A stretch of 64,000 nt of DNA, taken from NCBI RefSeq assembly GCF_000768675.1, contig NZ_AVPI01000056.1, positions 1-64,000 on the forward strand, written 5' to 3'. Positions 52,850-57,453 of the stretch are shown one piece after another. Source of the DNA: Knoellia flava TL1 (lineage in GTDB: Bacteria > Actinomycetota > Actinomycetes > Actinomycetales > Dermatophilaceae). Numbering within the stretch: position 1 is the first letter of the stretch; every line of letters begins with the position of its first letter. Both the position numbers and the translations under genes were made by a program. A model generated the notes under the pieces. That model had not been told where the DNA came from. It saw only the letters and a list, made by a program, of their open reading frames with translations, and ran no database searches.

Positions 52850-52855
52850 GTGGGT

Positions 52856-56164: not shown

Positions 56165-56303
56165 GCTCGCAGCCTAGGTCGAGAGTGCTCGACACGCCGC
56201 CGAGCACCCACCACCCCCAGCGTGTTCTGCACTCTCGACCTCGTGCCCACCGTCCGTGGTCGAGTTGCGGCTCGACTCTCGATGCGTGCGAGAATCGTCC
56301 GAG

Positions 56304-56422
56304 CGGAGGGGAGTATCCCCAGCGCGGACTCCTCGTCATCACGGTCTCATCCAGGCCCGGGGATCCGGTCCAGCCCCACGGGCGGGAGAGACCTCCGGGA
56401 CACGCACCCGACCCCCGGAAGG
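56304..56422 (+). promoter_or_regulatory. yybP-ykoY manganese riboswitch upstream of terC
   Basis: The conserved L1 sequence GGGGAGTA (56308-56315) follows P1 5' strand CGGAGG (56304-56309), which pairs with CCTCCG (56392-56397). L3 element GAGAGACC lies at 56385-56393. P2 is ATCCCC (56315-56320) with GGGGAT (56359-56364). TCCGGG (56394-56399), which shares bases with P1, can instead pair with CCCGGA (56414-56419), hiding the ribosome site GGAAGG (56417-56422). Metal-stabilised P1 would thus free translation of the TerC gene. This class senses Mn2+. Confidence 0.85.
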
Positions 56423-56430
56423 TTCCGCAC

Positions 56431-57453
56431 TTGCACTCCCTCACCTCACTGGCGGCCGCGACGCCGTCGATGAACGTCGCCACGTGGCAGTGGTTCCTCA
56501 CCATCGGCATCGCCGCCGCCGTGCTGCTCTTCGACGTCGTCATGATCGCGCGCAACCCGCACCGCCCGTCGACGAAGGAGCTCGTCCTCGCGCTCTCGTT
56601 CTACATCGGCGCCGCGGTCCTCTTCGGGATCTGGGTCTGGCTCAGCCACGGGAGCCAGCTGGCGGGCGAGTTCTATGCCGGCTGGCTGACCGAGTACTCC
56701 CTGTCGGTCGACAACCTCTTCATCTTCCTGCTCATCATGGCGAAGTTCGCCGTGCCCGAGAAGTTCCAGCAGACGGCCCTCATGTGGGGCATCATCATCG
56801 CGATCGTCCTGCGCGGCATCTTCATCTGGCTCGGCGCCGCGGCGATCAACAACTTCTCGTGGGTCTTCTACATCTTCGGCGCGTTCCTCATCTACACCGC
56901 GGTCAAGCTCGCGACCGAGGGCGAGAGCGACGACGAGGAGTACGAGGAGAACCGCTTCATGAAGTGGGTGGAGAAGACCCTGCCGTCCACCAAGGAGTGG
57001 ACGAGCAAGATGGTCGTCAAGGAGAACGCGAAGCGCGTCGTCACGCCGCTCTTCATCGTCGTCCTCGCGCTCGGCACGACCGATCTGCTCTTCGCGCTCG
57101 ACTCGATCCCGGCGATCTACGGCCTCACCAAGGAGCCCTACCTCGTCCTCACCGCGAACCTCTTCGCGCTCATGGGTCTGCGCCAGCTCTACTTCCTGCT
57201 CGGTGGCCTGCTCCAGAAGCTCGTCTACCTCAGCCTGGGCCTGTCGGTGCTGCTCGCCTTCATCGGCGTCAAGCTCATCCTCCACGCCCTGCACGAGAAC
57301 GAGCTGCCGTTCATCAACGGCGGCGAGCACTTCGACGTGCCGGAGATCCCGATCGCGGTCTCGCTGGGCGCCATCGTCGTCATCCTCGGTGTCACCACGG
57401 TCGCCAGCCTCTGGAAGACCAAGCGTGACGAGAAGCAGGAGATCAACGCCTGA
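56431..57453 (+). CDS. TerC-family membrane protein (probable Mn exporter)
   Basis: A 340-residue protein with about nine helices. TerC signatures are EYSLSVDNLFIFLLIM (acidic Asp-Asn) and LALGTTDLLFALDSIPAIYG. A charged loop (about residues 165-205, SDDEEYEENRFMKW) separates the two halves. TerC proteins are linked to manganese export and to metalation of exported enzymes. TTG at 56431 is selected because GGAAGG is 8 nt upstream and lies in the riboswitch expression platform; an ATG at 56470 lacks a ribosome site. The C-terminus is Lys/Glu-rich and cytosolic. Confidence 0.92.
   Translation: MHSLTSLAAATPSMNVATWQWFLTIGIAAAVLLFDVVMIARNPHRPSTKELVLALSFYIGAAVLFGIWVWLSHGSQLAGEFYAGWLTEYSLSVDNLFIFLLIMAKFAVPEKFQQTALMWGIIIAIVLRGIFIWLGAAAINNFSWVFYIFGAFLIYTAVKLATEGESDDEEYEENRFMKWVEKTLPSTKEWTSKMVVKENAKRVVTPLFIVVLALGTTDLLFALDSIPAIYGLTKEPYLVLTANLFALMGLRQLYFLLGGLLQKLVYLSLGLSVLLAFIGVKLILHALHENELPFINGGEHFDVPEIPIAVSLGAIVVILGVTTVASLWKTKRDEKQEINA

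Follow-up and report, generated by a model that had tools for sequence, protein, structure and literature searches.

The terC locus and its leader

Examination of a 64,000-nucleotide stretch of the Knoellia flava TL1 genome (referred to here as the window) revealed a UvrB-like gene, yjbR, a divergent alpha/beta hydrolase gene, terC and an opposite-strand gene encoding an EamA transporter between positions 52850 and 58358. Among the relatives compared, those closest to the TerC protein come from Knoellia species (91-97% identity), and the TerC assignment made in an earlier note on this DNA, with a frame beginning at TTG 56431, agrees with the PF03741 domain match (Table 1). This TTG lies 8 nt 3' of the Shine-Dalgarno (SD) sequence GGAAGG, and its proposed role as the true start codon is borne out by the congeners, all eight of which have TTG (5) or GTG (3) at this position with the same SD; in Knoellia, no SD precedes the downstream ATG 56470, the codon to which the start of other genera aligns.

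A structured RNA element precedes terC, for which constrained folding of relatives gave a common architecture of P1.1, L1, P1.2, a short linker, P3 with L3 and P3.1, and P4. All elements previously named in this leader were found at 56303-56440, including GGGGAGTA, GAGACC, P1.1 and a helix competing with it, with the exception that the "P2" described there is not the P2 hairpin of the yybP-ykoY family, which is absent; the helices are P1.1, P1.2, P3/P3.1 and P4. The L3 metal-site loop, P1.2, P3, P4, the absence of P2 and a second copy at the other terC of the genome are additional to that description. Regarding the promoter, the pattern [TG]ANNNT was detected 4-12 nt 5' of P1.1 in 95 of 147 elements compared with 11-23 in control windows, and since a -10-like hexamer stands 6-8 nt 5' of P1.1 across the set, transcription is expected to start at the P1.1 strand.

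Table 1. Coordinates of terC and of the predicted features of its leader in the window.
Feature	Positions	Strand	Remarks
-10-like hexamer GAGAAT	56290..56295	+	7 nt 5' of aptamer
Putative compact three-way-junction aptamer, yybP-ykoY (Mn2+) type	56303..56398	+	Held-out model R2 and model R1
P1.1 5' strand CGGAGG	56304..56309	+	Switch helix; resembles SD copy
P1.1 helix CGGAGG/CCTCCG	56304-56309 / 56392-56397		
GGGGAGTA	56308-56315		
L1 5' side GGAGUA	56310..56315	+	100% conserved, n=101 elements
P1.2 5' strand UCCC	56316..56319	+	Partner GGGA 56384-56387
5-nt linker	56320..56324	+	Occupies place of P2 hairpin in canonical members
P3 5' strand CGGA(C)UCC	56325..56332	+	Partner 56361-56367; C56329 bulged
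L3 5' side UCGUCAUCAC	56333..56342	+	Loop length 10; contains A56338
P3.1 hairpin GGUCU-CAUCC-AGGCC	56343..56357	+	
L3 3' side CGG	56358..56360	+	
P3 3' strand GGAUCCG	56361..56367	+	
P4 hairpin GUCC-AGCCCCAC-GGGC	56368..56383	+	91% paired, two-sided changes
P1.2 3' strand GGGA	56384..56387	+	
L1 3' side GAGA	56388..56391	+	AGA 100% conserved
GAGACC	56388-56393		L1 3' side running into P1.1
Shared strand CCUCCGGG	56392..56399	+	P1.1 3' strand (56392-56397) if ON; anti-SD if OFF
CCCGGAAGG	56414..56422	+	SD GGAAGG (56417-56422) and 5' flank; predicted OFF partner of 56392-56399; A56420 bulged
terC	56431..57453	+	340 aa; start TTG; PF03741 E 1.2e-50

Covariance models and class assignment

Searches with RF00080, the Rfam model of the yybP-ykoY family, gave no match at the gathering score in the whole window, where no other Rfam model gave a riboswitch match, no match even at E 10 in a 361-base stretch containing the element, no match in the whole genome, and a match at none of 20 terC loci of relatives. 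This Infernal search, which had been proposed as a check in the earlier note with a missing match counting as refutation, is considered uninformative; its negative outcome carries no weight, as E. coli mntP, a proven switch, likewise scores below the gathering score of 45 (41.6 bits, L119 15462-15558), and RF00080 is too narrow a model.

A first covariance model (R1) was built from 22 sequences, in which covariation was well over both controls and P1.2 was paired in all sequences, with the variants UCCC/GGGA, UUCC/GGAA, CCCC/GGGG and CUUC/GAAG. R1 gave 86.6 bits on the window element but did not recognise E. coli mntP, and it thus describes the compact form rather than the whole family. As a guard against circularity, only Propionibacteriales and Mycobacteriales sequences went into a second model (R2), with none from Micrococcales, the order of the window; R2 matched exactly 56303-56398 (70.7 bits, E 1.1e-18), with a runner-up at 15.7 bits in the window and a next-best match at 21.4 bits across the whole genome.

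The R2 alignment has two-sided changes in all eight pairs of P3, with pairing in 94% of all cells. Across 101 aligned elements, two-sided changes were found in 24 of 27 pairs and the covariation score was 0.62, compared with 0.21 when shuffled; P1.2 was 98% paired in this alignment, with two-sided changes at 4/4 pairs. An initial MAFFT alignment (A1), in which P3 was one column off between two groups and therefore only 62% paired, was replaced by a single-clade alignment (A2) and a model-based alignment (A3). Since the fold energy of the element is unremarkable for its composition (z -0.6, not significant), the evidence for it is comparative.

That unexceptional fold energy and the missing RF00080 match are what might be expected of a conserved leader with chance resemblance to a riboswitch, or of a protein-binding site, but such readings retain hardly any probability and are judged refuted in practice by the R2 match (E 1e-18) and the two-sided changes in 24/27 pairs; the invariant loops and the gene context recovered by RNA-only searches also stand against them. 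Several loci (G076:C22, G158:C1, G175:C69 and L115-L118) were matched by both R1 and, below its cut-off, RF00080, and as intermediates they tie the compact form to RF00080. There is thus little doubt that the stretch before terC is an RNA switch akin to the manganese riboswitch already known, and the membership of the yybP-ykoY class put forward in the earlier note now has comparative evidence in the R2 match, the covariation and the invariant loops. Judged from sequence comparison, the element is very probably a compact yybP-ykoY Mn2+ riboswitch variant lacking P2, acting on terC as a translational ON switch.

Distribution, metal site and the missing P2

Within the class, R1 matched 129 of 198 genomes, and across the phylum it matched 35 of 149; RF00080 matched seven of the same 198, none over its cut-off. 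The R1 searches used the RNA alone, and the downstream genes therefore serve as a test. A readable gene followed 76 elements, encoding TerC in 56 cases, MneA/GDT1 in 13 (one a weak assignment), a member of the Na/Ca-exchanger family in 4 and other proteins in 3; the lower-ranking matches were read by choice, favouring multi-copy genomes, and these proportions are no unbiased census. TerC and MneA encoded behind such switches in V. parahaemolyticus are Mn-induced Mn exporters (PMC13274385). The recurrent pattern 5' of terC in relatives is CGGAGG-GGAGTA-TCCC ... TCGTCATCACGG ... GGGA-GAGA-CCTCCGG ... CCGGAAGG ... start. Weak RF00080 matches in relatives were found before mneA and Na/Ca-exchanger genes and at none of the terC leaders. 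The second terC of the K. flava genome has a compact element of its own (53 bits; G000:C48:4700-4802, L002 1138-1240, L121 1501-1603), and a search of this genome for an mneA homologue with such a leader gave a weak protein match only.

Further leaders were noted in other genomes. Knoellia locipacati (G008) has a compact element before mneA/GDT1 (L118 1974-2066, also L117) with a longer and different platform (CUUUCGACCAG...CUGGUCGAAGG), which is probably not of the simple anti-SD form. Mn-riboswitch-like leaders of Na/Ca-exchanger family genes were found at L113-L116, two with P2 and two without, and back-to-back elements about 105 bases apart at L166 (2466-2564 on the minus and 2670-2815 on the plus strand). 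Elements were also seen before genes other than those of known Mn transporters, encoding a GreA/GreB-like protein (L192 378-495) and a proline-rich protein (L150 1501-1597), and before a small hypothetical protein gene (L157 327-434). On a Mumia contig, the element is followed at about 2.5 kb by a c-di-AMP (ydaO-yuaA) riboswitch (L104 4469-4636). Close terC homologues at L060, L085, L086, L103, L108 and other loci have no such leader, which suggests repeated loss.

Regarding the metal site, GGGGAGUA of L1, C-A of L3 and AGAC are invariant in the 101 elements, the C-A of L3 being A56338 and the C just before it, both 100% conserved. In the solved structures, the contacts to Mn2+ come from L1 and L3 phosphates and from the N7 of a single adenosine, which is invariant in L3 and numbered A41 in L. 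lactis and A48 in X. oryzae (PMC9190785, PMC6754395). By sequence, A56338 corresponds to this Mn2+-discriminating adenosine and is its putative counterpart. The L3 of the window element likewise has a length of 10, and its positions are putatively matched to those of the L. lactis loop. After the discriminator A, L3 reads UCAC here and UACU in many members.

Mn2+ is the likely ligand of the compact element. A compact form that chiefly senses another divalent metal or signal (Ca2+, Ni2+/Co2+, or pH together with Mn2+) could account for the absent P2, for the difference in L3 beside the discriminator and for the relatives standing before Na/Ca-exchanger family genes, and the E. coli alx switch is also tied to alkaline pH (PMC9603457). 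This reading is nevertheless quite improbable given the invariance of the metal-site residues, the Mn-discriminating adenosine among them, and the occurrence of the same RNA before mneA/GDT1 and terC, families with roles in Mn export.

With Mn2+ as the probable ligand, the window element shares with yybP-ykoY members (RF00080; L. lactis yybP/yoaB and the X. oryzae crystals) the L1 of form GGGGAGUA...GAGACC, the P1.1 switch helix, P3/P3.1 and P4, the 10-nt L3 with the Mn-binding adenosine and the 3' CGG, the terC and mneA targets and, presumably, the ON logic. It differs in the UCCC/GGGA that follows L1, where canonical members have GC(C)/(G)GC, in L3, which is UCGUCAUCAC here and UCAACAUACU in the canonical form, and above all in the lack of P2 and of the four-way junction, both of which are present in all solved structures. 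GGAGTA and L3 are 17 nt apart in the window element, and in 96 of the 101 elements the spacing is 15-19 nt; in E. coli mntP, about 30 nt separate L1 from L3. A spacing of 15-19 nt leaves no room for a P2 hairpin, and without P2 the junction is a three-way one in place of the usual four-way. A clear P2 occurs in just two members of the set (29 and 37 nt), both of them Na/Ca-exchanger leaders, L113 and L114.

Two characterised leaders are close for comparison. The E. coli mntP switch is an established Mn2+ riboswitch which acts by SD exposure from a 229-nt leader (PMC11647493); like the window element it falls below the RF00080 cut-off and exposes the SD with Mn2+, as the window element would, but it has P2 and a long leader, whereas in the window the SD and the P1.1 3' strand lie in one short hairpin. 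The terC leader of C. glutamicum (cg2157) is annotated with RF00080 (49 bits by Rfam), has its transcript start at the leader and is about 170 nt long (PMC3890552); it is thus also an actinobacterial terC leader, yet Rfam detects it, whereas the window form of about 96 nt goes undetected. The element is filed as a variant because P2 lies outside the metal site. On balance we favour the view that the P2-less form is a distinct, phylum-wide Mn2+ riboswitch subclass with L1-L3 docking on a three-way junction, a minimal self-contained translational switch of about 120 nt with an anti-SD strand, which possibly differs in metal affinity or selectivity. It is set apart here from the solved structures and from E. 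coli mntP; the 2015 riboswitch papers may mention such members.

The P1.1 3' strand and the proposed control of terC

The competing helix pairs TCCGGG (56394-56399) with CCCGGA (56414-56419), covers GGAAGG and grows to 8 bp with a bulged A when 56392-56393 pair with 56421-56422. Among 123 distinct terC leaders, the pairing of the P1.1 3' strand with its own SD was 6.90 compared with 5.47 when permuted (sd 0.10), and in the 42 leaders with variant strands it was 5.84 compared with 4.52 (sd 0.16), values which are not strict probabilities because the sequences are related. Strand and SD co-vary, as in CCUUCCACC/GGUGGAAGG (L180), CCUCGAACA/UGUUCGAGG (L162), CCUCAAGC/GCUUGAGG (L156) and the second terC of the genome, where the P1.1 3' strand CCUCAUGAC can pair with GUCGUGAGG across the SD. 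P1.1 pairing is retained alongside SD pairing, which places two pairing constraints on one strand, and this is what a switch requires.

In predicted metal-free folds of full leaders, P1.1 was formed in none and the SD was mostly paired. The predicted energies of the window leader are -68.6 kcal/mol for the free fold and -53.4 kcal/mol for the aptamer-forced fold, a gap too large for simple equilibrium switching, and the decision would therefore probably fall during transcription. The ON-switch logic proposed in the earlier note, by means of a helix that shares bases of P1 and covers the SD, thus gains comparative support from the own-SD pairing, the covariation and the folds. Manganese would accordingly be expected to turn the switch on, and control is likely to be exerted at translation, no intrinsic terminator having been found in the leader.

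The same RNA and switch might instead act mainly on transcription, through Rho-dependent termination of the untranslated leader, either in place of or besides translation initiation. In the mntP leader of E. coli, masking of the SD is coupled to Rho termination (PMC11647493), and the downstream part of the present leader is C-rich (ACACGCACCCGACCCCC), but the lack of an intrinsic terminator and the conserved covariation of the P1.1 3' strand with the SD itself in most terC leaders speak against this mode, which we consider unlikely.

For translational control, the proposed sequence of events would be as follows. The transcript would start at about the P1.1 5' strand. At low Mn2+, L1 and L3 would remain undocked and P1.1 unstable, and the freed 3' strand CCUCCGGG would pair with CCCGGA(A)GG and hide the SD. 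Mn2+ bound between L1 (GGAGUA/GAGA) and L3 (UCGUCAUCAC/CGG, with A56338 as discriminator) would keep P1.1 closed, leaving the SD free, so that TerC would be made and cytosolic Mn2+ lowered. Within this scheme, the aptamer fold, the metal-site residues, the gene context and the either/or pairing of the strand are established by comparison of related sequences.

For one large class of bacteria, most Mn2+ riboswitches escape the current Rfam model. The compact form makes it testable whether the four-way junction is required for Mn2+ docking, and the exchange between P1.1 and the anti-SD helix is short and hence amenable to two-base swaps. Actinobacteria, including mycobacteria and those with Streptomyces-sized genomes, would have an RNA-based Mn export regulon comprising terC, mneA and genes of the Na/Ca-exchanger family.
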